Below, piece after piece: positions 1,153 to 23,630 of a stretch of 35,279 nt of DNA; the stretch's first letter is position 1, and each line of letters starts with the position of its first letter. The notes under the pieces were generated by a model. It was not told the DNA's origin. It ran no database searches and worked only from the letters and a program-made list of their open reading frames with translations. The translations under genes were made by a program, and so were the position numbers. The stretch spans positions 1-35,279 of IMG/VR virus record IMGVR_UViG_3300027969_000246; one strand, given 5' to 3'. The DNA comes from a virus.

Positions 1153-1412
1153 GCGATTTTAAATATTCGTTTTCAATAGTCAACGATTCCGGTATCTCGC
1201 CAGCATTTATCAAAGCTAATTCTTATTTGATTAAAAATTCTTCTATCCTGGCTAGTGAAAAAGAAGCATTGAAAGGTCAAGCGATATTAGAGGAAATATG
1301 GCTTGCTGAATTTCGTGGAAAGTTATTCTACGATCAAGATGTAAAGGCGTGGACTAGAGTAGACTTCGATAGTGAACAAGATCTGACAATGTTTTTAATT
1401 AAATGGGGTTGA
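1149..1412 (+). CDS. Small protein of unknown function
   Basis: This 87-residue protein starts in an ATGA overlap with the preceding gene. It is mixed alpha/beta with a central helix (KEALKGQAILEEIWLAEF) and an aromatic C-terminal segment (AWTRVDFDSEQDLTMFLIKWG). I do not recognise the family. It is the last plus-strand gene of the left block, and its end overlaps the end of the convergent minus-strand gene by 18 nt. No terminator separates the two convergent units. Confidence 0.5.
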   Translation: MSDFKYSFSIVNDSGISPAFIKANSYLIKNSSILASEKEALKGQAILEEIWLAEFRGKLFYDQDVKAWTRVDFDSEQDLTMFLIKWG

Positions 1413-1760
1413 TTCTACCCAAATATTTTTTGACTGCAAGTCAATTCCAAATACTGCTGCCTGTCTAGATACTTGTTCGGCAGCATCCGGACCATAAAAT
1501 GTCTGTATCCCTTGATCTAAATGGCTGAACAGATTGTACACGATCATATAAAACTCAGCGTAGGGACTCCACGACACATATATTCCCAAACTTCCCGGTG
1601 CGTAATAAATCTGTTCCCAAAAAGCTACGTCGGGAACAGTAATTTCTCTATCTTGACCCCACCCAGGCGGAACTATGGTGTTCGTTGGTCGAATGTAACT
1701 AGAAAAATCTAATTTCCAAGGATGATTTAAAATATCGTGAGTGGATCGAATAATCAACAT
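1395..1760 (-). CDS. Small protein, paralogue of the gene at 13006-13479
   Basis: A 121-residue protein, clearly related to the 157-residue protein at 13006-13479. Shared elements in the same order are an N-terminal R-S/T-T-x-(D/N)-I-L segment, a V-P-P / L-P-P segment before a W, D-x-x-(F/Y)-W-E-x-(I/L)-Y, then (G)-(I)-(Y/F)-x-(S/A)-W-x-P-Y-A-E-(F/Y)-Y, then T-F-Y-G-P-(D/N)-A-E, and a C-terminal W-V-(E/D). The start codon follows the stop of the upstream gene directly (TAAATG), with no convincing ribosome site, so translation is probably coupled. The function is unknown. Its position among fibre-associated genes suggests a virion or fibre-accessory role. It lacks the roughly 25-residue insertion after the P-Y-A-E-Y-Y motif seen in its paralogue. 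Confidence 0.6.
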   Translation of the reverse strand: MLIIRSTHDILNHPWKLDFSSYIRPTNTIVPPGWGQDREITVPDVAFWEQIYYAPGSLGIYVSWSPYAEFYMIVYNLFSHLDQGIQTFYGPDAAEQVSRQAAVFGIDLQSKNIWVESTPFN

Positions 1761-2315: not shown

Positions 2316-2341
2316 GATCTGTTTCCTTGGTAATTTAGCAT

Positions 2342-2371
2342 CTTATATTTAGTTAATAATTTTCCTGTCAA
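2342..2371 (-). promoter_or_regulatory. Promoter for the minus pair 2315-1395: sigma70-like plus late CTAAATA element
   Basis: On the minus strand, TTGACA (complement of 2366-2371) is followed after 18 nt by TATAAG (complement of 2342-2347), a near-consensus sigma70 promoter. Overlapping it, the minus strand reads CTAAATA (complement of 2346-2352), matching the T4-like late promoter element. The start codon lies about 30 nt downstream, with an AAGGAA ribosome site between. Having both types would allow early and late expression. Confidence 0.5.
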
Positions 2372-2382
2372 ATATTTACCCA

Positions 2383-2389
2383 CTAAATA
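2383..2389 (+). promoter_or_regulatory. Late-promoter-like CTAAATA before the oxygenase/halogenase cassette
   Basis: CTAAATA lies 7 nt upstream of the first ATG of the cassette (2397), in the divergent intergenic region 2316-2396. If it works as a T4-type late element, the first transcript would be leaderless or nearly so, since no ribosome site precedes that ATG. No good sigma70 -35/-10 pair was found on the plus strand here, so this is the only visible candidate promoter for the 10.6-kb operon. Confidence 0.35.
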
Positions 2390-2396
2390 CTCAGCT

Positions 2397-2969
2397 ATGC
2401 TAATCACTAACATTTTTTCAAGTTTTATTGCCTACGAACAACTAACTTTGGATCTAGAAAGGCTTAAAAATTATTGTTACTCTCTTAAGAATTTATCAAA
2501 TGGACGAATATTGAGTAACTACGGCGGATGGCAAAGTGACGATCTACCGTTGGAATCTAAAGACACTGAAGAGTTACGTGCAGTCATTAATAACAAAATT
2601 GTAGAAATATTAAAAAATCTAGGGTTGACTAACGAGTTTACAATCAGTAACTATTGGTTAAATGTAAACGGTAAAGGTGATTTCAACAGACCGCATCGCC
2701 ACGGTTTTTCTACATTATCGGGTGTAATATATATTAGTGCTCCTCCTAATTCTGGAAAATTAGTGTTAAGGAATCCTAATCATGCCCATGGTTTTTGTAT
2801 TGATGAAAAAATAGTAACTGATTGGAATCAGTTTAATTCGTTTACTTGGGAAATCGAGCCTGAGCCAAACAAGATGTTGGTGTGGCCAGCATGGATAGAT
2901 CATTACACATTACCTAATAACTCAAACGAAGATCGCATTTCGCTTGCATTTAATATTTTAGTCACATGA
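2397..2969 (+). CDS. 2OG-Fe(II) oxygenase-like protein, H-x-H subfamily (gene 1 of cassette)
   Basis: A 190-residue protein resembling the 'putative 2OG-Fe(II) oxygenase' family often annotated as TIGR02466. Visible signatures are N-R-P-H-R-H-G-F-S-T-L-S-G-V-I-Y-I at about 97-113, with H100 and H102 as probable metal ligands. The distal histidine is H169 in W-I-D-H, followed by N-S-N-E-D-R180-I-S-L-A-F-N, where the Arg would bind the 2OG carboxylate. In this family the usual H-x-D is H-x-H. It lacks a ribosome site and lies 7 nt downstream of CTAAATA. Its end overlaps the next gene (ATGA). The last cassette gene (12386-13009) is of the same subfamily. Substrate unknown. Confidence 0.75.
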   Translation: MLITNIFSSFIAYEQLTLDLERLKNYCYSLKNLSNGRILSNYGGWQSDDLPLESKDTEELRAVINNKIVEILKNLGLTNEFTISNYWLNVNGKGDFNRPHRHGFSTLSGVIYISAPPNSGKLVLRNPNHAHGFCIDEKIVTDWNQFNSFTWEIEPEPNKMLVWPAWIDHYTLPNNSNEDRISLAFNILVT

Positions 2970-3508
2970 TGCTACAAGTATACGACAACATATTTGACGA
3001 CAAATATATTTTTGAACTCAACGAATTATGTGACAAACTACCTAACATTCCACATAACGTTGCTAACAGCCAAACGTGGCCCTATGGTAGAGTCGGCACA
3101 CACAATATCATGGGGGCGACTTTGTTTAGGAAATTATCCGACTATGTCTACGAGTCAGGATGCCCTTTGCAATTGATGTGGGCATTTGATCACTTTGCAA
3201 ATAAGATATTAAAAGAGCCTGTTGAATTAAAAGAAATATATTCTAATTTACAAGTTATGGGCATGGACGGGTCGTCCCACACCGACACCGGTGGTGGTTC
3301 TAAAACTGCTATATTGTTTACTACCTACAACTGGAAGAAAGAATGGGGTGGTGAATTTCAAACTCTTGATCAGCAAGGAAATGTCACTAATACTATTGAC
3401 TATGTTCCTGGAAGAATTCTATATTTTGATGCAGACATTCCGCATCGTGGGCTAGGGCCAACTGTTCCTGGCGTGTATAGGCACAGTATTGCTTATAGGA
3501 TAAAATAA
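2966..3508 (+). CDS. 2OG-Fe(II) oxygenase (gene 2 of cassette)
   Basis: A 180-residue double-stranded beta-helix dioxygenase. The iron triad is visible as H105-T-D107 (SSHTDTGGG) and H160 (DADIPHRGLGP), with R172 in V-Y-R-H-S-I-A-Y-R as the probable 2-oxoglutarate ligand. W-G-G-E-F lies between the two halves, as in prolyl-4-hydroxylase-like enzymes. It would couple 2OG decarboxylation to hydroxylation of an unknown substrate in the infected cell. It overlaps the upstream gene by 4 nt, and the next gene starts on its last stop-codon base (TAATG). Confidence 0.8.
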   Translation: MMLQVYDNIFDDKYIFELNELCDKLPNIPHNVANSQTWPYGRVGTHNIMGATLFRKLSDYVYESGCPLQLMWAFDHFANKILKEPVELKEIYSNLQVMGMDGSSHTDTGGGSKTAILFTTYNWKKEWGGEFQTLDQQGNVTNTIDYVPGRILYFDADIPHRGLGPTVPGVYRHSIAYRIK

Positions 3509-4149
3509 TGAAAATCGCATTTTATACCGTGTGCGAATTACCTGTTGCAGTTATCGACGAATACTATGACAACCGTGCCTGTGATCGCATCTGGCAAGAA
3601 TTATGCTTTTTAAATAACGATCAAGGAAAACTTCTAAACCCATCAGCAACCGGAAGTGCATTAGATCTAACGACCGGGGTTCCTCTAAAAAGAAACCATG
3701 GTATAGATCTGGAGAGCGTGTATGCAGACCATGCAATTTCAAATATTTTAAGAGAAAACAAAAAACTATTTAGAGATGAACTCACTGATCAATTAATGGG
3801 GCACCATGCTTTTTTTAGATATCTCAGAGGAGATCCAGAAAACAGCACATTGGTACAATATTATGAGAACGGAGATCATTATAAAAAACACACCGACGGT
3901 GCAGTTATAACTGCCATTACATTTTTCTATCAAGGACCTAAGTCGTTTTCCGGTGGAAATTTGATTTTTGAAGATAAATTACAAATAGACTGCGGGTATA
4001 ATCGAACGGTAATTTTTCCATCTATATTGTTCCATGCTGTTGAGTCAGTTAGCATTAGCAGCTCGTTGGTAGGTCAAAATTTTGGCAGATATTCTATAAC
4101 CCAATTTGTAGGTAATCCTATCGGGGATCAATTAATACAACAGAGGTAA
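3508..4149 (+). CDS. Prolyl-4-hydroxylase-like 2OG-Fe(II) oxygenase (gene 3 of cassette)
   Basis: A 213-residue protein with a textbook P4H-like core. It has L-V-Q-Y-Y-E-N-G-D-H-Y-K-K-H128-T-D130-G, then F-S-G-G-N-L-I-F-E-D, then V-I-F-P-S-I-L-F-H176-A-V-E, and finally F-G-R194-Y-S-I-T-Q-F, where Arg is the expected 2OG-binding residue. All three iron ligands and the Arg are present, so the enzyme is probably active. The N-terminal 90 residues form a family-variable cap. Gene order and 1-nt overlap place it in the same operon; AGAGG near its 3' end serves the next gene. Confidence 0.85.
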   Translation: MKIAFYTVCELPVAVIDEYYDNRACDRIWQELCFLNNDQGKLLNPSATGSALDLTTGVPLKRNHGIDLESVYADHAISNILRENKKLFRDELTDQLMGHHAFFRYLRGDPENSTLVQYYENGDHYKKHTDGAVITAITFFYQGPKSFSGGNLIFEDKLQIDCGYNRTVIFPSILFHAVESVSISSSLVGQNFGRYSITQFVGNPIGDQLIQQR

Positions 4150-4153
4150 TACC

Positions 4154-4786
4154 ATGGCATTATTAGTAAACAATCTTTTTCCTGGCCATATAGAGCCAGA
4201 CACCGTTGTAGGTGGCTGCATTGATATTTTTGAAAACGCTTGGCCTAACTGGGCTGAAACAATTCAGGCAGTTGAGCAACAGGTCAAGAACACTGATTCA
4301 GGTGTGTATTGGGAACGTGCAGAAACTATGAATCTTGGTCCTTTTCAAAATCACAGAACCAATCAAGTCATGGAAATCAGTCACCTGGCCAATGTCGCTG
4401 AGAATAAACTATTGCAGAATGTTCATAATCAAATGAATTTGTTGTTGCTGGCCGCTACAAACTCCTATTCAAAACGCTACGGTATCAATGAAGGGTTCTG
4501 GCATGAGGGATATAACTTATTGAAATATAGCCAAGGTCAACAATATCAAGCACACTACGACGGCGGTACTGGAGTAGGCAGAGTGGTATCTGCAATAATC
4601 TACTTAAATTCAGACTATGATGGCGGTCATCTCGAGTTTCCAAATTTTAAAATAAAAATCAAGCCGGAACCTGGAATGTTAATTTTGTTTCCGTCAAACT
4701 ATGCTTACAAACACGTTGCACACCCAGTAACTGGTGGTACAAAATATGCATTGGTAACATGGATTAAAGATAGACAGATGTCATGA
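4154..4786 (+). CDS. Prolyl-4-hydroxylase-like 2OG-Fe(II) oxygenase (gene 4 of cassette)
   Basis: A 210-residue P4H-like protein. The core reads L-L-K-Y-S-Q-G-Q-Q-Y-Q-A-H134-Y-D136-G-G, then S-A-I-I-Y-L-N, D-G-G-H-L-E-F-P, and I-L-F-P-S-N-Y-A-Y-K-H187. It closes with P-V-T-G-G-T-K197-Y-A-L-V-T-W. Most bacterial and phage relatives have Arg where K197 stands; animal collagen prolyl-4-hydroxylases use Lys there, so 2OG binding is still plausible. The start is preceded by AGAGG at a suitable distance, 4 nt after the previous stop. The end overlaps the next start by 4 nt. Confidence 0.85.
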   Translation: MALLVNNLFPGHIEPDTVVGGCIDIFENAWPNWAETIQAVEQQVKNTDSGVYWERAETMNLGPFQNHRTNQVMEISHLANVAENKLLQNVHNQMNLLLLAATNSYSKRYGINEGFWHEGYNLLKYSQGQQYQAHYDGGTGVGRVVSAIIYLNSDYDGGHLEFPNFKIKIKPEPGMLILFPSNYAYKHVAHPVTGGTKYALVTWIKDRQMS

Positions 4787-5301
4787 AATATAAAATTATT
4801 GATAATTTTTTAGAGGAACAAGAATTTAAAAATATCCAACAGACAATGTTAGGTAATGCGTTTCCTTGGTATTTCAATGAAGGTGTGACCTATCAAGATC
4901 TGTCCAAAGATTATCTTCATAATTTTCAATTCACACACATGTTCTGGAATGTAACCGGTAGACTTGCTCAAAGTGAGTGGAGCTCGTTGTTGGATCCTGT
5001 GATTGCGAAAATTGATCCAGCAGCCATGCTTAGGATGAAAGCCAATCTCATGCCCGTGACTGCTGAAAGGATTGTTCATCAATTACACATTGATCTCGAT
5101 CATATAAAATGCACAACTGCGGTGTTATATCTAAACACCAACAATGGGGCTACGATATTTGAAGACGGGTCAGAAGTGCAGAGCGTTGCAAATAGATTAG
5201 TATATTTTGATTCAACTGTTCGACATACTAGTTCATCTTGCACTGATAAAAAAGCAAGATGTGTTATCAACTTTAATTACATAGGTAAAGATTTACAATG
5301 A
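4783..5301 (+). CDS. 2OG-Fe(II) oxygenase of a type I recall from cyanophages (gene 5 of cassette)
   Basis: A 172-residue protein. The probable iron ligands are H102-I-D104 (HQLHIDLDH) and H148 (DSTVRHTSSS), with R159 in K-K-A-R-C-V-I-N-F-N as the 2OG-binding residue. Between them lies T-A-V-L-Y-L-N-T-N-N-G-A-T-I-F-E-D-G and S-V-A-N-R-L-V-Y-F. That combination is one I recall from cyanophage and marine bacterial 2OG oxygenases. It is coupled by 4-nt overlaps to the genes on both sides. Substrate unknown. Confidence 0.8.
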   Translation: MKYKIIDNFLEEQEFKNIQQTMLGNAFPWYFNEGVTYQDLSKDYLHNFQFTHMFWNVTGRLAQSEWSSLLDPVIAKIDPAAMLRMKANLMPVTAERIVHQLHIDLDHIKCTTAVLYLNTNNGATIFEDGSEVQSVANRLVYFDSTVRHTSSSCTDKKARCVINFNYIGKDLQ

Positions 5302-6002
5302 ATATAGAATTTTTACCGTCATCTGAAGATGTTCAAAATTTTATTGAACCACCTCAACCTGGAAAATCAACAATCCCGCAGTGGTTCAAAGATATGCCAG
5401 GATTTAATCCCACTCGAGATCCGTTGATGTTTGACAATGAAGGCACGTTGGTAAACAAACATTTAAAAATGTGCATGCCGTTTATTGATGCCATAACTGG
5501 CGGGTTTGTTCAAAAGACTTGGTGTGACATTTATATTAAACCAGGTGGTAACGGAACTGCTACTTATAATTGGGCGCATAATCCTGCACCGTTGGGCGAT
5601 CGAGGAAAATGCAATGTTCCAATCAGTGACAAATATTATCCGCTAGAATTCCATTGGATTGTTCCCTGGATACCTAAACTTCCAGACGGATACAGTTTAT
5701 TAATCACGCATCCGCATAACAGATTAGATCTTCCGTTCACTACACTATCCGGAATTATAGATGCAGATAAATTTCATCACGTGGGATTTGGTCAATATCC
5801 TTTTTATATCGATCATAATTTTGAAGGTATTATTCCACTCGGAACTCCTATGTTTCAAATGATTCCTTTTAAACGTGATGACTGGAAATCAACAATAAAA
5901 GAATTTAATATCACAGAGCAAAAGAAAAAATCTTATCTATCACTAAGAGAATACTGGAGCGTCTATAAAAATCATTTTTGGCAAAAGAAAAAATATGACT
6001 AA
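5298..6002 (+). CDS. Uncharacterised 'THPHNR' family protein, copy 1 (gene 6 of cassette)
   Basis: A 234-residue protein closely related to the 231-residue protein at 6618-7313. Conserved blocks are M-x-I-E-F-(L/I)-P-S-S at the start, (I/L)-P-Q-W-(F/Y)-K-D, and C-x-P-F-I-D-A-(I/L)-T-x-G-(F/Y)-(V/I)-Q-K-T-W-C-D-I. Next come P-W-I-P-K-L-P-x-G-Y-S and T-H-P-H-N-R-L-D-L-P-F-T at 137-148. The last block is G-T-P-M-F-Q-M-x-P-F-K-R. The His-rich motif and the final strand pattern would suit a cupin-like beta-barrel, but that is inference. I do not know a characterised homologue. It overlaps the next gene by 8 nt. The clustering with oxygenases and halogenases suggests a partner or a new tailoring enzyme. 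Confidence 0.6.
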   Translation: MNIEFLPSSEDVQNFIEPPQPGKSTIPQWFKDMPGFNPTRDPLMFDNEGTLVNKHLKMCMPFIDAITGGFVQKTWCDIYIKPGGNGTATYNWAHNPAPLGDRGKCNVPISDKYYPLEFHWIVPWIPKLPDGYSLLITHPHNRLDLPFTTLSGIIDADKFHHVGFGQYPFYIDHNFEGIIPLGTPMFQMIPFKRDDWKSTIKEFNITEQKKKSYLSLREYWSVYKNHFWQKKKYD

Positions 6003-6621
6003 TTTGAATCCCGAAAAATTTAAAGAAAACGGATATTGCATCATAAGATCAGCAATATCCAACGAGCTGCGAGACATCATCACGCAGTATGCGTTGTTTG
6101 ATGAAATGCAAGACTATTCAGCTGATAAAAATCAGGTCATCGGAGCTCATTCAAAATATGCTGATCCAGCAATGGAGGCGATATTGTTGCATTTGCACAG
6201 TATCATGGAAGCCAACACCGGTCTTACCCTACATCCCACATATTCTTTCTATAGAGTTTATCGCAGCGGTGATGAGTTAAAGGCGCATCGAGACCGACCG
6301 TCGTGCGAAATTTCAGCAACTCTGTGTTTTAATTACAGTTATAATGATGCAACATATCAATGGCCTATGTACATCAACGATCAGAATACCGCTGCTGATC
6401 TTAGACCAGGCGATATGTTAATTTATAGAGGATATGATCTTACCCATTGGCGAGAAAAATTTAATCCTCCCGAGGACAGTTGGCATGTGCAAGGATTTTT
6501 TCATTATGTAGATGTCAATGGTCCTTACGCCGACTACAAAAATGACGGACGTGACACTATTGGTGAATCTAGAACTAAAAAAGCAACACCAGACAAATCG
6601 TATATAACATTTACACAATGA
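5995..6621 (+). CDS. 2OG-Fe(II) oxygenase, PhyH/P4H-like (gene 7 of cassette)
   Basis: A 208-residue protein. The N-terminus (F-K-E-N-G-Y-C-I-I-R-S-A-I) is typical of phytanoyl-CoA-hydroxylase-like oxygenases. The iron site reads Y-R-V-Y-R-S-G-D-E-L-K-A-H98-R-D100-R-P-S-C-E-I-S, with H151 in L-T-H-W-R-E-K-F as the likely distal ligand. Next are W-H-V-Q-G-F-F-H-Y-V-D and N-G-P-Y-A. The H-x-D-R-P-S-C-E-I-S and H-W-R-E blocks are strongly family-like. It is sandwiched between the two THPHNR paralogues and overlaps them by 8 and 4 nt, which suggests a functional trio. Confidence 0.8.
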   Translation: MTNLNPEKFKENGYCIIRSAISNELRDIITQYALFDEMQDYSADKNQVIGAHSKYADPAMEAILLHLHSIMEANTGLTLHPTYSFYRVYRSGDELKAHRDRPSCEISATLCFNYSYNDATYQWPMYINDQNTAADLRPGDMLIYRGYDLTHWREKFNPPEDSWHVQGFFHYVDVNGPYADYKNDGRDTIGESRTKKATPDKSYITFTQ

Positions 6622-7313
6622 TAATTGAATTTATTCCTTCTAGTAAGGCAGTGTTTGATAATGTTCCTATTCCAGAACGTGCAACATCTAACTTACCTCA
6701 ATGGTACAAAGATGCGCCTGCGGCAAGCACTGCCAAACACATGGAAGTCGATCAAGAAGGAAAAATAGTCAAAGGATTGAAATCCTGCACTCCATTTATT
6801 GATGCGTTGACTTCAGGATACATTCAAAAAACTTGGTGTGACATACATATCGAATTTAATAATGGTGAATTTAATTATCGTTGTGGTCAAGATCCTATAA
6901 TAATGGAGCACCGAGACAAAGTCAACACCGAGATCACTGAGCAATACTATCCTATTGAATTCGCATGGTTGATGCCGTGGATTCCCAAACTACCCAAAGG
7001 CTATAGTATACTATGCACTCATCCTCACAATCGATTAGATCTTCCGTTTACAGCACTCACCGGGATCATCGACTCCGATGAGTTTTATCACGTTGGGTTT
7101 GGTAAATTTCCTTTTTATATTGAAAAAGGATTCACCGGTACCATACCTGCGGGTACTCCGATGTTTCAAATGACTCCATTTAAACGCGACTCGTGGGAAT
7201 CTAAAAAAATTAAATACGAAGAAGAAGCACAAACTAAAAGAGAATACACATATCTTAGAGAATTTTATAATGTGTATAAAAATAAATTTTGGAAGAAAAA
7301 ATCTTATAGGTGA
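6618..7313 (+). CDS. Uncharacterised 'THPHNR' family protein, copy 2 (gene 8 of cassette)
   Basis: A 231-residue paralogue of the protein at 5298-6002. It keeps P-Q-W-Y-K-D, C-T-P-F-I-D-A-L-T-S-G-Y-I-Q-K-T-W-C-D-I, P-W-I-P-K-L-P-K-G-Y-S, T-H-P-H-N-R-L-D-L-P-F-T (134-145) and P-M-F-Q-M-T-P-F-K-R. The main differences are a shorter segment around residues 35-55 and a more charged C-terminus (K-x-Y-E-E-E-A-Q-T-K-R-E). Both copies look intact, so both are probably used. It starts in an ATGA overlap, and the first halogenase follows 3 nt after its stop; AGGTGA at its 3' end is that gene's ribosome site. Function unknown. Confidence 0.6.
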   Translation: MIIEFIPSSKAVFDNVPIPERATSNLPQWYKDAPAASTAKHMEVDQEGKIVKGLKSCTPFIDALTSGYIQKTWCDIHIEFNNGEFNYRCGQDPIIMEHRDKVNTEITEQYYPIEFAWLMPWIPKLPKGYSILCTHPHNRLDLPFTALTGIIDSDEFYHVGFGKFPFYIEKGFTGTIPAGTPMFQMTPFKRDSWESKKIKYEEEAQTKREYTYLREFYNVYKNKFWKKKSYR

Positions 7314-7378
7314 TTTATGAAAATAGTAATTGTAGGTGGCGGCACTGCTGGATGGTTAGCTGCATATTGCTTGTGTAA
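7313..7378 (+). repeat. 5' near-identical segment of the tandem halogenases (pairs with about 8795-8860)
   Basis: The bases around and after the two start codons match except for two silent differences (GTA/GTG and GGC/GGT) across about 62 nt. This is much closer than in the following segment of the same genes. Confidence 0.7.
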
Positions 7379-8795
7379 AGCACAACCAGGACAGCATGAT
7401 ATCACAGTGGTAGAGTCATCATCCATTGGCATCATCGGAGTTGGAGAAGCTACCACAGGACTAACCAAAGATCTGCTAAACGGCGTATTATTTCCAGCGG
7501 CAGTTGACATAAAAGATTTTATTAATAAAACTGATGCAACTAATAAAATGGGGATTTATCACAAGGGTTGGGCCAAGAATAAGGAGTCGTATTTTGCTCC
7601 GTTAGATGCCTCAAGTACATTTCAACTGAACAACGATTTTGTTTTTAAATATGCATTTCAAAAATTTGGTTACGATAAATTTCATATGGCGTCGAGGGCA
7701 GGAGTAAATTGGGAGAATCAAAATTTTGACGAATTCCATGCTTATCAATTTGACACACATAAAGTAGGCCAATTTTTTAAAGAAATATGTTTGAAAGAAA
7801 ATATTAAAATTATCGATTCTGTGGTAACACAGGTAAATCTCAATGAGTCGGGTGGCATAGACTCTGTAATTTTAGAACAAGGTTATTCTGTTAGTGGTGA
7901 TTTTTTCTTTGATTGCACCGGATTTAAACGAGTGCTGATGGAAGCAGTTGGTTCTAAATGGATCTCGTATAAAAAATATCTTCCTGTTGATACTGCAATG
8001 CCGTTTCGATTAACTTATCAATCCAACGAAAGACCATTACCAATGACCACAGCTCATGCAATGTCATCTGGATGGATGTGGGATATTCCATTACAATCAA
8101 GACGTGGTTGCGGTTATGTGTTTGATAGCAATTTTATTTCCAAAGAAAATGCACAGAAAGAAATAGAAAGCTATCTAGGGATGGAAATTGAGCCTATCAA
8201 GTTCATTGATCTATCTAGTGGAAAGAGTGATACGTTTTGGAAAAACAATGTGCTGTCATTGGGCCTATCATCTTCTTTTGTGGAGCCGTTAGAGTCAACA
8301 TCTATACACAACACCATTGTACAGATCATGGTTTTTATTGATGAATTTCTGTCTCCTGTTGCTGAAAAAACCGTTACAAAAGAAAACGAAAAACTATACA
8401 ATAAAAATATTGATACATTATTTGAATATGTATTTGATTTTTTATCTCTTCACTATCAAGGTGGTAGGGATGACAGTGAGTTTTGGAGAAACATTAAAAA
8501 CAATAAGATCGTGACTGACTACACCCAGATGTTAATCAACAAGTCAAAAGATAAAATTATCGGCGCCACCACATTTGATAATGCTAATCCTAATGCCCCA
8601 GGTGCTGCATTGTGGAATTGGGTCATGGCTGGTCTGCATATTATAACTCCAGAACAGGCTAGGCAAGAATTAATTGAAACAGGAATGATGTCAATCGCTG
8701 AACATCACTGGGATGATTTCCATACTAATTTACTGCACCAAAAGAATAGATCACACGCATGGTCTACCAAGCCATATGTTGAGTACACAAAATAA
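7317..8795 (+). CDS. Flavin-dependent tryptophan-halogenase-like protein 1 (gene 9 of cassette)
   Basis: A 492-residue member of the tryptophan halogenase family (PF04820 type). It has the N-terminal FAD-binding G-G-G-T-A-G-W (7-13) and G-V-G-E-A-T (41-46). K77 in D-A-T-N-K-M-G-I matches the catalytic Lys of PrnA. W253-M-W-D-I-P258 is the W-x-W-x-I-P signature that separates halogenases from monooxygenases. F-V-E-P-L-E-S-T-S-I (321-330) is the active-site Glu region. Such enzymes use FADH2, O2 and halide to make HOX and chlorinate or brominate electron-rich groups. No flavin reductase is visible in the window, so FADH2 would have to come from the host or from elsewhere in the phage. The substrate need not be free tryptophan. 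The next gene is a close paralogue. Confidence 0.9.
   Translation: MKIVIVGGGTAGWLAAYCLCKAQPGQHDITVVESSSIGIIGVGEATTGLTKDLLNGVLFPAAVDIKDFINKTDATNKMGIYHKGWAKNKESYFAPLDASSTFQLNNDFVFKYAFQKFGYDKFHMASRAGVNWENQNFDEFHAYQFDTHKVGQFFKEICLKENIKIIDSVVTQVNLNESGGIDSVILEQGYSVSGDFFFDCTGFKRVLMEAVGSKWISYKKYLPVDTAMPFRLTYQSNERPLPMTTAHAMSSGWMWDIPLQSRRGCGYVFDSNFISKENAQKEIESYLGMEIEPIKFIDLSSGKSDTFWKNNVLSLGLSSSFVEPLESTSIHNTIVQIMVFIDEFLSPVAEKTVTKENEKLYNKNIDTLFEYVFDFLSLHYQGGRDDSEFWRNIKNNKIVTDYTQMLINKSKDKIIGATTFDNANPNAPGAALWNWVMAGLHIITPEQARQELIETGMMSIAEHHWDDFHTNLLHQKNRSHAWSTKPYVEYTK
7895..8002 (+). repeat. Internal near-identical segment of the tandem halogenases (pairs with 9377-9484)
   Basis: By direct comparison these 108 nt differ at only three positions (7922, 7935 and 7982). 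They encode the G-D-F-F-F-D-C-T-G-F-K-R block through V-D-T-A-M-P. The sequence immediately after is divergent. The spacing (1482 nt) is the same as for the 5' segment, so there is no net indel between them. Confidence 0.7.
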
Positions 8796-8798
8796 TTT

Positions 8799-10223
8799 AT
8801 GAAAATAGTAATTGTGGGTGGTGGCACTGCTGGATGGTTAGCTGCATATTGCTTGTGTAAGTCTCAGCCGGGACAACACACTATCACAATTATTGAATCG
8901 TTGGCAATTGGCATTATTGGTGCGGGCGAAGGTACTGTAGGATCCATGCATGACCTAATACACGGCGATTTATTTCCTGTTAAAATTGATGAGCAAGACT
9001 TTATTAACAAAACTGATGCAACTAATAAAATGGGGATCTATCATAGATTTTGGGGTAAAGGAAAGCATGAATATTTTGCTCCTTTAGCAGGGGGGCCTAC
9101 AGCAAAATCAAACTGTGATTTTGTTTTTAAATATGCATTTCAGAAATATGGATACAATAAATTTCATCTTGCTGCGCAAGAAGGTTTACATCTAGAAGAA
9201 AAACAATACGACGAATTTCGTGCATATCATTTTGATGGACACAAAGTAGGACAATATTTTAAAGAACTATGTTTAAAAGACAATGTTGAAGTAATCGATT
9301 CAATAGTAAAAAAAGTAAATCTCAACGAACACGGCCATATTGCATCGTTGACACTTGAAGAAGGATATACAGTAGTTGGTGATTTTTTCTTTGATTGCAC
9401 CGGTTTTAAACGAGTGTTGATGGAAGCAGTTGGTTCTAAATGGATCTCGTATAAAAAATATCTGCCTGTTGATACTGCAATGCCATTTATAATAAAACAT
9501 AAAGAAGGAGATTCTCCTCTACCAATGACCACTGCCACTGCACTATCGTCCGGCTGGATGTGGGATATACCGTTGCAGACTAGGCGAGGTTGCGGTTATG
9601 TATTTGATAGCAATTTTATTTCCAAAGAAAATGCACACCGAGAAATTGAAGAGTTTTTAAAAGTAGAAATAGAACCCATTAAGTTCATTGACTTTACCAG
9701 CGGTAGGGGCAGTGATTTTTGGAAAAACAATGTAATATCGTTGGGACTATCGTCGTGTTTTGTAGAACCTTTAGAGGCTACATCAATACATAGCACAATA
9801 GCTCAAACTATGATTTTTATTGATCAATTTTTGTCATCAAATTTAAAAAATACGATTACAAAAGAAAATGAAATATTATATAACAAGCATGTTTCTTCTA
9901 TCTACGAATCAATTTTTAATTTTATATCATTGCATTATCAAGGCGGTCGAGACGACAGCGAATTTTGGCGTTACATTACACACGATAACGTGATAACTGA
10001 TCGTACAAGACTGTTACTAGACAAATCTAAGAATAAAATTTTAAGTGCATGGATGTTTGACAACGGTAGCCGATATGCTCCGGATGCATCATTATGGAAT
10101 TGGATACTTGCTGGGCTTCGGTTTATTTCACCCGAACAGGCTAGGCAAGAACTAATTGAAGCTGGTCAGTTTGAGCAAGCTGAACGCTACTGGACTCAAT
10201 ATATTAAATCAGTGCTTGGCTAG
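8799..10223 (+). CDS. Flavin-dependent tryptophan-halogenase-like protein 2 (gene 10 of cassette)
   Basis: A 474-residue tandem paralogue of the preceding halogenase. It shares G-G-G-T-A-G-W (7-13), K77 in D-A-T-N-K-M-G-I, G-W-M-W-D-I-P and F-V-E-P-L-E-A-T-S-I. The FAD-loop motif differs: G-A-G-E-G-T replaces G-V-G-E-A-T. The region that follows (about 46-65) and the segment around 95-135, which lie near the substrate site in known family members, are clearly diverged, so a different substrate or regiochemistry is plausible. Stretches of nearly identical DNA with the upstream copy indicate recent duplication or gene conversion. It starts 3 nt after the previous stop without a clear ribosome site. 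Confidence 0.9.
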   Translation: MKIVIVGGGTAGWLAAYCLCKSQPGQHTITIIESLAIGIIGAGEGTVGSMHDLIHGDLFPVKIDEQDFINKTDATNKMGIYHRFWGKGKHEYFAPLAGGPTAKSNCDFVFKYAFQKYGYNKFHLAAQEGLHLEEKQYDEFRAYHFDGHKVGQYFKELCLKDNVEVIDSIVKKVNLNEHGHIASLTLEEGYTVVGDFFFDCTGFKRVLMEAVGSKWISYKKYLPVDTAMPFIIKHKEGDSPLPMTTATALSSGWMWDIPLQTRRGCGYVFDSNFISKENAHREIEEFLKVEIEPIKFIDFTSGRGSDFWKNNVISLGLSSCFVEPLEATSIHSTIAQTMIFIDQFLSSNLKNTITKENEILYNKHVSSIYESIFNFISLHYQGGRDDSEFWRYITHDNVITDRTRLLLDKSKNKILSAWMFDNGSRYAPDASLWNWILAGLRFISPEQARQELIEAGQFEQAERYWTQYIKSVLG

Positions 10224-10249
10224 ATGATACATATAGTAAAGGAACAGCG

Positions 10250-10942
10250 ATGGCTATAAATGTGTATTGGGCGTGTGTTGAAGATCAGTGGATGCTTGCC
10301 GAAGAGCCGCAGACTGTGTCTTCAGTGTTCTACAGTAAAAATTTAATAGACGATAATCGAGGATCTAAACTCAACTATTGTCCATCATTTAATAAAAATT
10401 TAAAAAACTTGTATGCTTTGAAATCTATATACGAATATGCATTTAAAGTAACTGATCAAGGGCTGGCTACCAACATGTACGATCAGAAATTCTTTGAAGA
10501 TCATGTGGTTGTTAGGTCAATGGATAAAAAATTCTTTTCATATCAAACCAAATACATATTTTTTACAGATGCCCCTAGTCTTAATGTGACATTTTACGAG
10601 TATCCGTTTTTAGAAAACAACAATATTACTACTAGATGCATCCCTGTTGCTGGACAATTTGACATAGGAAAATGGTTTAGAAACACTGAGTTTGCATTTT
10701 ATCTGAAACCTGAATACGATGAATTTAAAATTGAGAGGGAAGAAATTTATTCTTATATGAGATTTCATACTGAAGAAAAAATTAATTTCGTTCAATTTAG
10801 ATACAACGACAAACTAAACAGCTATGTTGGTGACGGATTTGCACTGACCTTTGGTCACTTCTTAAAAAATCTAGAAGATTTTTATAAGCTATTCAAGAAT
10901 AAAAAAGCCATACTAAAAGAAATAAGGAACAATCTCGTATGA
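10250..10942 (+). CDS. Uncharacterised protein, possible distant member of the THPHNR family (gene 11 of cassette)
   Basis: A 230-residue protein with a good ribosome site (AAAGGAA), following a 26-nt gap that is the largest in the cassette. Two segments align by eye with the 5298/6618 pair. C-P-S-F-N-K-N-L-K-N-L-Y-A-L-K-S-I-Y-E-Y compares with C-x-P-F-I-D-A-x-T-x-G-x-x-Q-K-T-W-C-D-I. F-A-F-Y-L-K-P-E-Y-D-E-F-K-I followed by Y-S-Y-M-R-F compares with P-F-Y-I-x-x-x-F-x-x-x-I-P and P-M-F-Q-M-x-P-F. The T-H-P-H-N-R motif is absent; G-Q-F-D-I-G-K-W-F-R occupies that area. I recall similar proteins near halogenases in cyanophages but cannot name a function. Confidence 0.5.
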   Translation: MAINVYWACVEDQWMLAEEPQTVSSVFYSKNLIDDNRGSKLNYCPSFNKNLKNLYALKSIYEYAFKVTDQGLATNMYDQKFFEDHVVVRSMDKKFFSYQTKYIFFTDAPSLNVTFYEYPFLENNNITTRCIPVAGQFDIGKWFRNTEFAFYLKPEYDEFKIEREEIYSYMRFHTEEKINFVQFRYNDKLNSYVGDGFALTFGHFLKNLEDFYKLFKNKKAILKEIRNNLV

Positions 10943-12393
10943 GAAATGTAAAAAAACTACTGGTAGTAGGTGGCGGTACTGCAGGGCTTGTATCGGCCAT
11001 CATTCTTAAAAGAAAATTAGACATTGAAATTGATGTTGTGTATTCTAAAAATATTGGCATTGTTGGTGTCGGAGAGGGCTCTACTGAGCACTGGAAAGAG
11101 TTCATGGATGTTGCTGGTATTGATCAATACACACTAATAAAAGAATGTGATGCTACTTTTAAATCGGGTATCATGTTTGAAAACTGGGGCGATAAGACTT
11201 ATTTTCATAATGTTATTGAACCGTTTTCTAAAACCAGCGGGCAATATCAATGCGTCTACGGCAAACAGATATCTGAAAACGGACCTGTTAATGCTCGGGG
11301 TGTATGGAATAGTGAAATCAGTGATTGGTTTGTTAACAAGCCAGACGAATATCATGCGTTTCAGTTCCATTTTAATACCAACAAATTAAATGACTTTCTG
11401 TTGAGACTGGCAGAATCGTTTGGCATTAATCTAATTGAAGATGACATATCAGACGTTGTGTTAGATGACGATGGATATATTAAAAATTTAATTGGCACAA
11501 AGCAACAGTATGCTTATGATTTTTATATTGATAGCACTGGTTTTAAAAGATTATTAATGAATAAACTTGGTGCTAAATGGCAATCCTACGGCGAGTATTT
11601 GAAAATGAAATCAGCAATAACATTTCAAACAGGAGACGAGGACAATTACAACTACTGGACTCTAGCTCGAGCAATGGACTACGGCTGGTTATTTAAAATT
11701 CCAGTATGGGGTCGACATGGCAATGGTTACATATTTGACAGCGATTACATCACTGCTGAACAGGCTCAAGCAGAAGTCGAGCAGCTACTTGGAAAAAAGA
11801 TTGAGGTTGGCAGACAGTTTAAGTTTGATCCCGGAGCATTGGATCGGCCGTGGATTAAGAATTGCTGTGCTATCGGGCTAAGTGGCAGTTTTGTTGAGCC
11901 GCTTGAAGCGACTTCCATAGGAACTTCAATCCAACAAAGCTTCTTGTTAGTACATAGATTAGTTAATTACACTGATAAGTCAGTTGAACAATATAATAAA
12001 TCAGTCAACGATATTATGGAAAACATTAGAGACTTTATTATACTGCATTATATCACAAATAAAACCAACACTCAGTTCTGGAAGGATGTGGCAAATACAG
12101 AATTACCCGAGAGTCTTTATACAAAATTAATGCAATGGAAACACAGACTGCCTATTCGTGAAGATTTCAGTGGACTTTCTGATTATATTTTATTTAAGGC
12201 CAGTAACTTTATTGTTGTAATGGAAGGGCTTGATCTATTTGATCGAGAATCGATTAGAAAAGAATTTGAGTCGCACCATCAATTAGCTAGAGTGTATGCA
12301 GACCAAGCTATTGAAAAATATCATGAATATGAAAACTCCGTGGTCTCGATCAAGCACAAAAAATTTATACAGATAATTAGAGATTATGTCTGA
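10939..12393 (+). CDS. Flavin-dependent tryptophan-halogenase-like protein 3, divergent (gene 12 of cassette)
   Basis: A 484-residue family member, clearly more distant from the two tandem copies. It keeps G-G-G-T-A-G (11-16), G-V-G-E-G-S-T (43-49), the catalytic-type K75 in D-A-T-F-K-S-G-I and F-V-E-P-L-E-A-T-S-I. The W-x-W-x-I-P signature reads W250-L-F252-K-I-P255, so the second Trp is Phe. The following G-N-G-Y-I-F-D-S matches the other two copies. The protein may be an active halogenase with a changed substrate pocket, or a non-halogenating flavoprotein. It starts in a 4-nt overlap and overlaps the next gene by 8 nt. Confidence 0.85.
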   Translation: MRNVKKLLVVGGGTAGLVSAIILKRKLDIEIDVVYSKNIGIVGVGEGSTEHWKEFMDVAGIDQYTLIKECDATFKSGIMFENWGDKTYFHNVIEPFSKTSGQYQCVYGKQISENGPVNARGVWNSEISDWFVNKPDEYHAFQFHFNTNKLNDFLLRLAESFGINLIEDDISDVVLDDDGYIKNLIGTKQQYAYDFYIDSTGFKRLLMNKLGAKWQSYGEYLKMKSAITFQTGDEDNYNYWTLARAMDYGWLFKIPVWGRHGNGYIFDSDYITAEQAQAEVEQLLGKKIEVGRQFKFDPGALDRPWIKNCCAIGLSGSFVEPLEATSIGTSIQQSFLLVHRLVNYTDKSVEQYNKSVNDIMENIRDFIILHYITNKTNTQFWKDVANTELPESLYTKLMQWKHRLPIREDFSGLSDYILFKASNFIVVMEGLDLFDRESIRKEFESHHQLARVYADQAIEKYHEYENSVVSIKHKKFIQIIRDYV

Positions 12394-13009
12394 TCCGGTT
12401 ACTCAAAAAAACATTTATCCGCTGTTTGCTACTGGAGTGTATAAGAACAAATTAAATATCACACTAACCAACAACGAATTAGCTGATATCTATGATCTAA
12501 ATTCCTCTAAACAGATCCTAGGCACGAAACTGTCCAATGATAAATTTATATTAGAACGGCCAGAATTACAACGATTAAAAAATATTCTATTAGACGAAGT
12601 CAAAGAATATTTCAATACTGTCATGGGCTATGAATTTGAAATTTATATCACAAATTCGTGGTGTAATATTGCTGGACACGCTGAGGGGCAGACTTTACAC
12701 AATCATGCCAACAGCGTGGTATCGGGAGTTTTCTATTTAGATGTTGATCAAAGCCAACCTTCAATAACCTTTGTTAATCCCACGCCTCCGTTCTTGCTGA
12801 ACATGCGATCACAGCAGTACAATATGTTTAATTCTTTGGAGTTTGATATTCCGCTTGAAGATAACACAGTAATATTATTTCCATCACAGTGCTTTCACTA
12901 TGTGAAATCTAATCCCACAACTAACAATAGAGTTAGTATTGCGTTTAACACTTTTGTAAAAGGTAATATTGGTGTTGAAACTGCTGGTGGTGATTTGGAT
13001 CTACACTAG
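12386..13009 (+). CDS. 2OG-Fe(II) oxygenase-like protein, H-x-H subfamily (gene 13 of cassette)
   Basis: A 207-residue protein of the same TIGR02466-like subfamily as gene 1. It begins with I-Y-P-L-F-A-T-G-V-Y, a typical start for the family. The metal motif is L-H105-N-H107-A-N-S-V-V-S-G-V-F-Y-L, the distal site is F-P-S-Q-C-F-H171-Y-V, and N-N-R182-V-S-I-A-F-N carries the probable 2OG-binding Arg. It ends the cassette, and its TAG stop (13007-13009) overlaps the stop codon of the convergent minus-strand gene. No terminator is seen at this junction, so convergent transcripts would overlap. Confidence 0.8.
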   Translation: MSDPVTQKNIYPLFATGVYKNKLNITLTNNELADIYDLNSSKQILGTKLSNDKFILERPELQRLKNILLDEVKEYFNTVMGYEFEIYITNSWCNIAGHAEGQTLHNHANSVVSGVFYLDVDQSQPSITFVNPTPPFLLNMRSQQYNMFNSLEFDIPLEDNTVILFPSQCFHYVKSNPTTNNRVSIAFNTFVKGNIGVETAGGDLDLH

Positions 13010-13479
13010 ACAATAATAATAGATTTTTCTTCTGCAGGCAGTGGTTGATGCAGCCACATTTCACTGTCGTCGACCCATACCAGTGACGGGTTTAATAAAA
13101 TTCCAAAATCTTTGGCTCGTTTAACAGCATGCATCTCTGCATTTGGGCCGTAAAATGTTTCAAAGGTTTTGTCCCAGTAGGGTATATGTGCTGTTTTTAG
13201 ATTTCTATCTCTAAACATAGGACCATTCGTTGCATCAAGACCTGTGGTTATTAAATAGTATTCTGCGTAAGGTAACCATGCAGCATAGAATCCTATGCCC
13301 CCGCTGCTTTCATACAGCACTTCCCAGTAGTCAATGTCTTCAACATGCAGATCTCGACTGTAGTCCCAGTTGACTTTAGGGGGGAGAACGAGAGTATCTG
13401 AATCCATCCAATTGGGATTAAATGCTTCGTTCTCGTCCGATGTTTTTAATATGTTGTAAGTGGTTCTAAATTGTGGCAT
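13006..13479 (-). CDS. Small protein, paralogue of the gene at 1395-1760
   Basis: A 157-residue protein sharing, in order, F-R-T-T-Y-N-I-L, L-P-P-K-V-N-W, D-I-D-Y-W-E-V-L-Y, G-F-Y-A-A-W-L-P-Y-A-E-Y-Y, F-E-T-F-Y-G-P-N-A-E and W-V-D with the protein at 1395-1760. It carries an extra 25-30-residue insertion after P-Y-A-E-Y-Y and a longer C-terminus. It follows the glycine-rich adhesin-like gene by 4 nt and has no clear ribosome site, so coupling is likely. It is the last gene of the long minus-strand structural run. Probably fibre-accessory or assembly; function unknown. Confidence 0.6.
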   Translation of the reverse strand: MPQFRTTYNILKTSDENEAFNPNWMDSDTLVLPPKVNWDYSRDLHVEDIDYWEVLYESSGGIGFYAAWLPYAEYYLITTGLDATNGPMFRDRNLKTAHIPYWDKTFETFYGPNAEMHAVKRAKDFGILLNPSLVWVDDSEMWLHQPLPAEEKSIIIV

Positions 13480-13483: not shown

Positions 13484-14446
13484 TTATACTAGGTATCTCA
13501 CAATAACAATTCCTGGGCCGCCTGTTCCCGAAACGCCAGAATTGTCTGAGCCACCACCACCACCGCCTGTGTTTGTACCAGCATTTGAACCGCCACGCTG
13601 TTGTCCACCGCCTTGTCCACCGCCGCCAGGACCACCAGATCCTTGACCAAAGTAGTTGTGGCAGCCCCCGCCCCCACCACCTGCATAAGTGTTCCATGAA
13701 CCGTTAATGGTTGTGTTAATACCGCGACCACCTGATCCTGCACGTTGAGTTGGGCCCCAGTCACTGGTACCACGCCCGCCAGGATATCCTTCAGGTCCTG
13801 CTGGCATTAGAATACCGTGGCTACCATAACCGTAACCTTCCCCTGGTACATCATATGCAACACCCGGTCTGTTGTGATGGTTTGAGTTGGCTGCTGAGTC
13901 GCCGCCCCAACCGCTGGCCCCACCTCCACCACCGCCTTGGTGATAACCATAACCACCGCCACTAGATCCTTCACGACCATTTCTTGCTCGGCTTGGATGT
14001 CCGCTGCCACCACCACCACCTAGACGTCCTTGGATGCCGTTGAAACTGGATGCCGTTCCATCTGCACCATCTGCACCTGTAGGCGCTCCGGGGCCACCAG
14101 TGCCAATACCTATAGGGTATGTGCCTGCTGCAACGGAAGTTTCACCTTGTTTGAAGCCGCCTGCACCACCACCACCACTGCCGTGTGTTGAATGGCCGCT
14201 GCCACCACCACCTACAATCATATACTCTACAGCTAGGTTAGTTGGTTGTAGATGTATAACTTCTTTGGGTGCATTATTTTTCAAAGCTACTTTTAATTGG
14301 CTTTCGCCTGTTTTGGTGAACATGTGGATTCTGTATCCGCCTGCTGTATAAACTATATCACCGCCCGTGATGTCAAATTTATCCAAAGTTTTTTCACTTT
14401 GTTTTAGTTTATCAACATTTCCTCTTACGCTACTAATAAATGGCAT
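13484..14446 (-). CDS. Glycine-rich adhesin-like tail fibre protein
   Basis: A 320-residue protein. Residues 1-75 form a non-glycine-rich N-terminal part containing G-G-Y-R-I-H-M-F-T-K-T-G. After V-E-Y-M-I-V-G-G-G-G-S-G (73-84) a glycine-rich region runs to about 312, with repeated G4-G6 runs separated by short polar or aromatic stretches. It closes with G-P-G-I-V-I-V-R-Y. The 'hydrophobic strand - Gly-rich - I-V-I-V-R-Y' plan is typical of the glycine-rich domain in many phage fibre proteins. By analogy with gp38-type adhesins it could form polyglycine-II-like sheets with receptor-binding loops. AGGAG precedes the start. It probably sits at the distal end of a fibre and determines host recognition. 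Confidence 0.75.
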   Translation of the reverse strand: MPFISSVRGNVDKLKQSEKTLDKFDITGGDIVYTAGGYRIHMFTKTGESQLKVALKNNAPKEVIHLQPTNLAVEYMIVGGGGSGHSTHGSGGGGAGGFKQGETSVAAGTYPIGIGTGGPGAPTGADGADGTASSFNGIQGRLGGGGGSGHPSRARNGREGSSGGGYGYHQGGGGGGASGWGGDSAANSNHHNRPGVAYDVPGEGYGYGSHGILMPAGPEGYPGGRGTSDWGPTQRAGSGGRGINTTINGSWNTYAGGGGGGCHNYFGQGSGGPGGGGQGGGQQRGGSNAGTNTGGGGGGSDNSGVSGTGGPGIVIVRYLV

Positions 14447-14464
14447 TTCATTCTCCTGAATATT

Positions 14465-15568
14465 TTAAACAATAAAGTCGGCATTGCCGGTGTATGTATG
14501 TACGTTGAATCCTGCAGCAACTGCCGGGGTGTTGGATGTTGCAAGCAGCAATGTGCGACTGTCTATTACCAACCAGCTGTTGCTGGCTCGTTTACGTATG
14601 GTTATTTGTTCGTTGGATGCGAATGTTCCAGTTTTACTGAGTGTGACGCCTGCACCTGCGGCCAATGTCAGCTTGCCTGCGCCAGTTCTAAGTATGTGAA
14701 CTATCGATCCTGTTGGAAAAGCTGTAGAATCGGGAGGAACTGTGACTGTGGCAGCTGAAGTGTTGGTGAACACCACACATTGATCTCTGTCAGTTAATGC
14801 TAGTGTATAGTCGCTGGTTCGCGCCGCAGTATCAGTTATTAGAGCATTCACAGTGCCTTCAATTACTGCACTGCCACCTGATATTCTTCCACTTACACCT
14901 ATACCACCAGTGACTACCAGTGTACCAGTGATGGTGCTAGAGGATGCCACGTTATCAGTTAGCAGCACACTAGCGCCAGCTTTGGTACCTGCACTGGTAC
15001 CTCTAATTGTAATGGTTCCGCTATTGGATGTGCTGCCGTATACGTTGGCAAAGCTGCCCACTGTGGCTGTTAATTCACCGGTGCTGGGCACAAATGCCAA
15101 GTTTGTTCTGGCATTGGGTACCAATGTAGTTGGTACTGCACCAGACGCAGTTCCAAAAAATGGATAATGTACAGTGGCTGAAGCTCCAGGATCGGTAACT
15201 GGAATATTTCCGCCAGCACTTGACCAACTTAAATTGCCGCTGGTATCTGAACTTAACACAAATCCACTAGTAGCTGCTACTGCTGCTGGCCAAGTAATGG
15301 TATAATTAGCAGCCATATTAGCTGCGGCCTGCTGGGCAATATAATTAGTGCCGTTTCCGACCGCTTCTCTAAGTCGTAGATCGCCTTGATTGGCTATCGT
15401 AAGATCGCCTGTGACTGAAACATCCGCGGCGACAGCGACTATACCAGTTCCACTTGGATCTAGTGTAAGATCTTGGTTTGCTTGTGATGTTGATAAGGTA
15501 CCGGCGCTGCCCTGTACGTTACCAATACTTTGTAATCCAGTTGTTTGTCCGCTCGTTCTTCGTCCCAT
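14465..15568 (-). CDS. Tail fibre protein
   Basis: A 367-residue, Thr/Ser/Ala/Gly-rich, beta-strand-rich protein. Near residues 31-50 is L-D-P-S-G-T-G-I-V-A-V followed by V-T-G-D-L, a shaft motif shared with the fibres at 29874 and 31064. The C-terminal domain (about 245-325) carries Y-T-L-A-L-T-D-R-D-Q-C-V-V-F and V-T-V-P-P, then G-S-I-V-H-I-L-R-T-G-A-G. That is a strand-rich domain frequent in phage fibre and baseplate proteins. The gene lies between a small beta-rich protein and the glycine-rich adhesin, consistent with one distal-fibre assembly. Confidence 0.7.
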   Translation of the reverse strand: MGRRTSGQTTGLQSIGNVQGSAGTLSTSQANQDLTLDPSGTGIVAVAADVSVTGDLTIANQGDLRLREAVGNGTNYIAQQAAANMAANYTITWPAAVAATSGFVLSSDTSGNLSWSSAGGNIPVTDPGASATVHYPFFGTASGAVPTTLVPNARTNLAFVPSTGELTATVGSFANVYGSTSNSGTITIRGTSAGTKAGASVLLTDNVASSSTITGTLVVTGGIGVSGRISGGSAVIEGTVNALITDTAARTSDYTLALTDRDQCVVFTNTSAATVTVPPDSTAFPTGSIVHILRTGAGKLTLAAGAGVTLSKTGTFASNEQITIRKRASNSWLVIDSRTLLLATSNTPAVAAGFNVHTYTGNADFIV

Positions 15569-15581
15569 GTTTTTACCCGCC

Positions 15582-15917: not shown

Positions 15918-15928
15918 TTTGTTCTCCG

Positions 15929-23605: not shown

Positions 23606-23623
23606 CGTACACTCCAGTATCTA

Positions 23624-23630
23624 TATTTAT
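23624..23630 (-). promoter_or_regulatory. T4-type late promoter element before the 2558-aa fibre gene
   Basis: The minus strand reads ATAAATA (complement of 23624-23630), 18 nt upstream of the ATG at 23605 in the 27-nt gap between the giant fibre genes. The leader would be very short, with GGAG as ribosome site. Confidence 0.5.

Follow-up and report, generated by a model that had tools for sequence, protein, structure and literature searches.

An oxygenase and halogenase gene island beside viral tail-fibre genes: a possible late cassette for tailoring virion proteins

Clusters of phage genes for 2-oxoglutarate- and Fe(II)-dependent (2OG-Fe(II)) oxygenases are already known, as are single phage halogenases. 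Existing explanations of phage 2OG genes turn chiefly on nitrogen status or DNA repair, and we know of no physiological substrate for a phage halogenase. Pelagiphages of the Mosig EXVC030M, HTVC008M and HTVC023P type carry clusters of several non-orthologous 2OG genes, which in Mosig and HTVC008M lie by neck/sheath genes and tail fibres. Here we describe an island of 13 genes, g01 to g13, in a 35,279-base linear virus record (IMG/VR record IMGVR_UViG_3300027969_000246, positions 1 to 35,279; hereafter the window) that sits at the matching place and shares with the pelagiphage clusters a gene of the g07 type. In the regions read, the pelagiphage clusters differ in having at most one halogenase (0-1), and no gene of the phrog_7084 or g11 type was found there. 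The original prediction for this stretch took the density of such genes to look more like a biosynthetic cluster than isolated auxiliary genes; this density is not unique, given the 2OG clusters in matching position in Mosig and HTVC008M. A variable insertion region from gp15 on is likewise described as the hyperplastic g15-g18 region of cyanomyoviruses (PMC2984593), from which the slot in the window differs in holding oxidative tailoring genes, in abutting tail fibres, and in that psbA is absent from nine related contigs. For the combination of gene families found here, its recurrence in one slot and its dUTPase-fold partners, we found no earlier description in the literature searched.

Open reading frames (ORFs) of the window were scanned by hmmscan against Pfam and PHROGs. 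The island consists of 13 plus-strand ORFs in a row at 2397-13009, each of which starts with ATG and either overlaps the next by 1-8 nt or lies 3-26 nt from it (Table 1). Seven of the products are 2OG-Fe(II)-type oxygenases, three are flavin-dependent halogenases and the other three are g06, g08 and g11. The prediction of 13 consecutive, closely spaced genes is therefore borne out, and the overlaps suggest translational coupling. Three paralogous pairs lie within the island (g09/g10, 67% identity; g06/g08, 54%; g01/g13, 27%), and every one of the 13 proteins has a 100% identical counterpart in a sister contig, IMGVR_UViG_3300009183_000333. With a probability of roughly 45%, we read the island as a late, modular cassette in the slot between gp15 and the tail fibres that tailors new phage proteins, most likely tail-fibre or small Trp/Tyr-rich proteins.

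Relatives were fetched by means of island genes, so that co-occurrence counts among them are biased upward; this bias does not explain a conserved gene order or slot. Contigs L028-L033 carry g04, a 7084 gene, g07, g11 and g12 in that order, flanked by m_e/m_f and m14, with core proteins 56-64% identical to those of the window (57-64% for the syntenic g04 orthologues, the 7084 member being more divergent) and a pair resembling g01/g13 on the other strand. At this position 15 or more related aquatic contigs have reshuffled islands, and dozens of contigs hold an island of this kind. The slot, running from the gp15-like genes p_a/p_b to the fibre genes m15-m18, is common to L028-L033, L054, L056-L057 and L182-L188; other gene combinations stand beside p_a/p_b in L054, L056-L057, L067 and L182-L188, with m15-type genes where the contig is long enough. 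Across relatives the islands contain 1-5 halogenases and 3-12 oxygenases, in varying combination, order and strand, the largest being those of L058, L066 and L078 (4-5 halogenases and 9-12 oxygenases; the Pfam matches of the L066 contig come from 5 genes). In a 185.8-kb relative (G012), 8 of the 9 oxygenase and halogenase genes fall inside 10.5 kb, for which uniform placement gives a probability of about 1e-8 with 17 windows allowed for. Because this clustering is accompanied by dozens of like contigs, the island is not a chance cluster, and the phenomenon is bigger than the original prediction reported.

Adjacency recurs within these islands: 23 of 29 distinct g07-type genes have a same-strand OXc-type 2OG neighbour within 100 nt, and a halogenase adjoins g11 at 10 of 21 distinct genes. 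By contrast, most loci fetched with g09 (L007-L026) are isolated halogenases with neither a 7084 gene nor g11. The proposal that the genes belong together is thus upheld by the syntenic core, the g04-g07 and g11-halogenase adjacency, the single slot and late-promoter-like sites. A comparison of gene order in related phages, which had been put forward as a check, finds the core order kept but the wider islands reshuffled, and the idea of enzymes acting in a fixed series on one scaffold finds no support, given the differences in composition, order and strand. Since composition and strand vary in this way, a fixed 13-step pathway is unsupported, and the genes are probably a modular toolkit or joint late cassette. 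The suggested likeness to a biosynthetic cluster is not borne out either, as the window island has no scaffold-forming enzyme of the kind that marks a small-molecule cluster and its composition varies among relatives. Two further genes were seen at these loci: a phage GroEL gene near the island of L058 (912-2576), and NodU/Nol-like carbamoyltransferases inside the islands of L054 (3909-5612), L055 (4205-5899) and L056 (16441-18126).

Late expression of the island is likely, because motifs resembling T4-type late promoters precede it here and in relatives. T4 late promoters read TATAAATA. Two of the eight CTAAATA sites in the window fall in the 81-nt gap upstream of g01, TTAAATA or ATAAATA occurs at the m17 and m18 genes, and the first island gene is preceded by TATAAATA in L030-L032 and by CATAAATA in L056.

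Among the oxygenases, g01, g02, g03, g04 and g13 match PF13759 or PF13640 above cut-off (g01 and g13 match PF13759/phrog_81 at 9e-22 and 2e-18), and g05 falls under it (5e-4); genes of the phrog_274 type overlap PF13640. Iron ligands had been predicted for all seven. The canonical HxD...H is present in five (g02-g05 and g07), but g01 and g13 carry HxH...H instead, a variant retained in 29 of 29 and about 22 of 23 members of their families. The g04 protein matches a bacterial prolyl-4-hydroxylase (P4H) structure at 3e-8 and human PHD2 at about 1e-4 by sequence, which allies it with the P4H/EGLN oxygenases; it differs from them at the 2OG-binding position, where the window copy has Lys but 78 of 101 relatives keep the usual Arg. 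Co-location of 2OG genes with a 'ferrochelatase' gene has been described (Wittmers 2022, PMC9599517), and there the partner was read as a ferrochelatase. Because HxD...H is conserved in 25 of 25 g07 relatives, because g07 matches the g04 profile at 1.1e-5 in a profile comparison, and because it has no Pfam ferrochelatase match at E<=1, the g07 'ferrochelatase' is, by these sequence marks, really a 2OG-type oxygenase. Judging from their 2OG iron ligands, the members found here are misnamed in PHROGs as 'DNA endonuclease V' (274) and 'ferrochelatase' (2954). Labels of this sort, 'DNA endonuclease (V)' or 'ferrochelatase' on 2OG-Fe(II)-type oxygenases, spread into phage annotations from PHROG families 274, 2297, 2954 and 3531.

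The halogenases g09, g10 and g12 match PF04820 (Trp_halogenase) at 1e-95, 2e-94 and 4e-90. As predicted, all three have GxGxxG for flavin adenine dinucleotide, the catalytic Lys and FVEPLE with the active-site Glu, features that are near-invariant in 45-47 of 47 g12-type and 21-22 of 22 g09-type proteins; WxWxIP is present in g09 and g10 but reads GWLFKIP (WxFxIP) in g12. The Trp residues of WxWxIP probably help to hold such enzymes to halogenase rather than monooxygenase activity, and with this motif altered halogenation by g12 should not be assumed. In a halogenase tree, the g12 orthogroup is largely one per phage and its members share the Phe of WxFxIP, g09 and g10 form a tandem duplicate inside a second orthogroup, and a third orthogroup, present in L058, L066 and L078, is missing from the window. 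The cyanophage Trp halogenases (prnA; VirX1 of Syn10, PDB 6qgm) share the PF04820 fold and motifs, and VirX1 is matched by g09 (7e-49) and g12 (6e-40); they differ in being mostly lone genes away from 2OG islands, at most about 43% identical to the window halogenases, and g12 stands apart by its WxFxIP. Matches of g12 and g09 to QhpG and LodB, flavoenzymes whose targets are Trp residues in proteins, are weak and far below cut-off, and serve as a lead only. Across the enzymes of the island catalytic residues are intact and conserved in relatives, so that inactivation, which would argue against a joint role, is not what we see.

The three remaining proteins, g06, g08 and g11, are predicted to form one superfamily with a fold like that of dUTPases and dCTP deaminases. 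The phrog_7084 profile (27 sequences) matches the g11 profile (12 sequences) at E=1.7e-6 (1.5e-6 on repeat). AlphaFold2 models of g08 and g11 have a predicted local distance difference test score of 82 and predicted template-modelling scores of 0.79 and 0.80; when they were compared with the PDB, all 50 listed matches were dUTPases or dCTP deaminases, with E values of 2e-3 to 1e-1 (best 2.3e-3 for g08 and 6.4e-3 for g11) and probabilities mostly of 0.9-1.0. GxIDxD and GTPxxQ stretches resemble, by eye, dUTPase motifs III and IV, and of the full set of five dUTPase motifs only these two are recognisable in the 7084 and g11 proteins. The family further differs from the known superfamily in matching it at E values of 2e-3 or worse and in having added N- and C-terminal segments, and its members are probably repurposed, as far as the models allow us to say. 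Among the 27 members of 7084, 13 have a weak DUF6065 match and 2 a Pfam dUTPase match (best 0.02), and neither 7084 nor g11 matches 2OG profiles (0.11 or worse).

At least 579 viral stretches encode relatives of this dUTPase-fold family. Dozens of records of haloarchaeal tailed viruses hold phrog_7084, and at L149 an Ntn-hydrolase/proteasome-like gene (1490-2011, assigned by eye) lies near 7084 genes, and its cluster is present in 7 viral loci. In bacterial contigs L084 and L088, DUF6065/7084-like genes stand beside a PATR/PA14 autotransporter gene and near one for a 1837-residue RTX/DUF4214 protein. We set the bacterial genes aside as a clue to function, their neighbours being varied (RTX/DUF4214, PATR autotransporter, porin, S8 protease); no halogenase or 2OG gene of the island families was found near these DUF6065-like loci.

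The island slot lies, by gene assignment, between the gp15-like sheath-stabiliser gene, which is full-length in L006, and the tail fibres; in L032 a head-tail adaptor gene (phrog_211) follows just past the gp15-like gene. The original prediction placed the island between minus-strand virion genes, which is right for the tail-fibre side, but the genes to the left, m_e and m_f, are unassigned and not proven to be virion genes. The m_e and m14 proteins are 32% identical by BLAST, with four Trp columns invariant across their family; each is a candidate substrate or fibre-associated protein. As a universal substrate we rejected them: only some island carriers have them, and a scan made with this family gave the sister contig alone. 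Recent horizontal import was also rejected, since GC content at third codon positions is equal in the island (0.28-0.38) and flanking genes (mostly 0.25-0.39); the lower GC of the island is thus due to protein composition. Within the fibre module, the giant fibre proteins of 2558 and 1838 residues (15929-29149) are paralogous, with 37% identity over 1253 residues, and a second paralogous pair (29874-30947 and 31064-32158) is also at 37%.

Table 1. Positions of the island genes and flanking features in the window
Feature	Position	Strand	Remarks
gp15-like tail-sheath stabiliser, 3' end	1..516	+	phrog_11196, phrog_227
m_e, small Trp/Tyr-rich protein, m14 paralogue	1395..1760	-	
Divergent intergenic region, 81 nt	2316..2396	.	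late-promoter-like CTAAATA at 2383-2389 (+) and 2346-2352 (-)
g01, 2OG oxygenase	2397..2969	+	PF13759/phrog_81/TIGR02466, HxH...H
g02, 2OG oxygenase	2966..3508	+	phrog_274 type, HxD...H
g03, 2OG oxygenase	3508..4149	+	PF13640/phrog_61, HxD...H
g04, core 2OG oxygenase, prolyl-4-hydroxylase-related	4154..4786	+	PF13640/phrog_61, HxD...H, PDB P4H 3e-8
g05, 2OG oxygenase	4783..5301	+	phrog_274 type, HxD...H...R
g06, phrog_7084/DUF6065-like	5298..6002	+	dUTPase-like fold by homology (g08 paralogue, 54%)
g07, core 2OG-type oxygenase	5995..6621	+	phrog_2954 ('ferrochelatase' in PHROGs), HxD...H
g08, phrog_7084/DUF6065-like	6618..7313	+	predicted dUTPase-like fold
g09, flavin-dependent halogenase, orthogroup 2	7317..8795	+	PF04820
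g10, flavin-dependent halogenase, g09 tandem duplicate (67%)	8799..10223	+	PF04820
g11, core gene, frequent halogenase neighbour	10250..10942	+	phrog_17480, predicted dUTPase-like fold
g12, core flavin-dependent halogenase, WxFxIP orthogroup	10939..12393	+	PF04820
g13, 2OG oxygenase	12386..13009	+	PF13759/phrog_81, HxH...H
m14, small Trp/Tyr-rich protein	13006..13479	-	other bracket of the island
Tail-fibre module: Gly-rich protein, 2558-aa and 1838-aa fibre proteins, smaller genes	13484..34779	-	

The window appears to come from a lake-type, T4-superfamily myovirus of aquatic bacteria. This placement follows from the T4-type portal in relatives G006, G012, G013 and G015 together with the gp15-like gene and the sheath and terminase genes (the latter two in G001); the portal is absent from the 147-kb G001 and from several fragments. 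The host is probably non-cyanobacterial and, as a guess, heterotrophic and perhaps alphaproteobacterial. A cyanobacterial host was rejected because psbA, a core gene carried by cyanomyoviruses (PMC3037559), is in none of the related contigs tested (11 + 9, some shared). G001 encodes a 5-aminolevulinate synthase (L177 9762-10964; TIGR01821, 564 bits), which is unusual for a phage and may point to the host. Among bacteria, this enzyme is typical of Alphaproteobacteria.

If the island is a late cassette for tailoring phage proteins, freshly synthesised phage proteins would have side chains hydroxylated by the 2OG enzymes and halogenated by the flavin halogenases, the WxF type possibly hydroxylating them; the targets would most likely be tail-fibre or adjacent small Trp/Tyr-rich proteins, whose modified side chains may alter receptor binding, stability or resistance to proteases. 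The g06, g08 and g11 proteins may be non-catalytic or repurposed partners, for instance scaffolding substrates or complexes for the halogenases, and, as none of the island genes was recognised as a flavin reductase, a host reductase would supply the reduced flavin. We count in favour of this reading the P4H match of g04, the late motifs, residue conservation, the slot, core synteny, the neighbours of g07 and g11, the clustering in G012 and the homology and shared predicted fold of the 7084 and g11 proteins. In a wider survey, 7084 genes neighbour genes for tail collar, S74, Gly-rich fibre and collagen-repeat proteins as well as glycosyltransferases (one of PF11397), carbamoyltransferases and methyltransferases; such decoration enzymes adjoining fibres favour a surface phage protein over a metabolite as target. 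PF11397 includes the glycosyltransferase acting on Skp1 hydroxyproline, a lead only.

Several points weigh against this interpretation. The case for a virion-protein substrate is one of gene context. The late motifs are brief sequence matches, and in the window as a whole CTAAATA is about as frequent as expected by chance. The Mosig cluster holds haem oxygenase and PcyA, both metabolite enzymes; composition and strand vary in relatives, so that some genes may be unrelated passengers; and collagen-like neighbours occur at only 10 of 118 7084 loci and nowhere in the window. We rejected collagen-like fibres as a general substrate on this last count (10/118 versus 0/45 loci, too weak a difference). 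The gp15 region is, moreover, a known insertion hotspot with ordinary metabolic genes in cyanophages (PMC2984593).

The same observations feed the competing explanations. The enzymes could instead act as classic auxiliary metabolic genes, modifying host metabolites or a surface glycan, lipid or pigment during infection, either to exclude superinfecting phages or to steer metabolism. A metabolic role is the usual interpretation of phage 2OG and prnA genes (PMC3037559, PMC10452541), the cyanophage halogenase VirX1 takes diverse small aromatics in vitro (reviewed in PMC8407142), and both the glycosyltransferases and carbamoyltransferases near 7084 genes and the haem oxygenase and PcyA of Mosig would suit such a role; the persistent position beside tail-fibre genes, the late-promoter-like motifs and the want of a scaffold-forming biosynthetic enzyme in the window island make this host-directed role a serious but rather unlikely alternative. 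Alternatively, unrelated auxiliary genes might simply gather in a hypervariable slot and act singly, the 2OG genes tuning 2-oxoglutarate or nitrogen status (PMC3037559). The hyperplastic g15-g18 region of cyanomyoviruses (PMC2984593), the variable composition and strand of the islands and the isolated halogenases of other phages (L007-L020) speak for such an assembly of passengers, but the core genes keep their order at ~60% identity, g04-g07 and g11-halogenase neighbours recur, the families are confined to oxidative tailoring rather than being random auxiliary genes, and the gene overlaps suggest translational coupling; we consider it distinctly unlikely.

Modification of pyrimidines by the dUTPase-fold proteins, oxygenases and halogenases together, that is, nucleotide or DNA hypermodification, would draw on the predicted likeness of g08 and g11 to the fold of dUTPases and dCTP deaminases and on the 7084 gene that adjoins thymidylate synthase in Halorubrum tailed virus 7 (HRTV-7; L081 5896-6786). 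It is nevertheless highly improbable: the Pfam scan found no match to a TET/JBP-type 2OG domain, the island is without a kinase, transferase or thymidylate-synthase homologue, its site is in a structural module and the dUTPase motifs are only partly retained. Least credible is a halogenated antimicrobial or signal made by infected cells, an idea raised speculatively for cyanophages (PMC2984593) and in keeping with the resemblance to PrnA, the tryptophan halogenase of pyrrolnitrin, since no further pathway enzymes were found and the islands vary freely. Tailoring of phage proteins by a late cassette remains our preferred reading; its most specific form, a dedicated viral system in which tail-fibre side chains are hydroxylated and halogenated, dUTPase-fold proteins partner the halogenases, and enzyme modules are swapped beside receptor-binding genes so that phages diversify the chemistry of their adhesins as well as the sequence, we regard as unlikely in all its parts together.

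A late cassette fixed beside tail fibres yields a specific, testable proposal of modified virion proteins. The analysis also puts right a 'ferrochelatase' label that recurs in annotations, and delineates a widespread family of dUTPase-fold proteins as a co-player. If the proposal is true, virion proteins would be, to our knowledge, the first known natural targets of viral halogenation.

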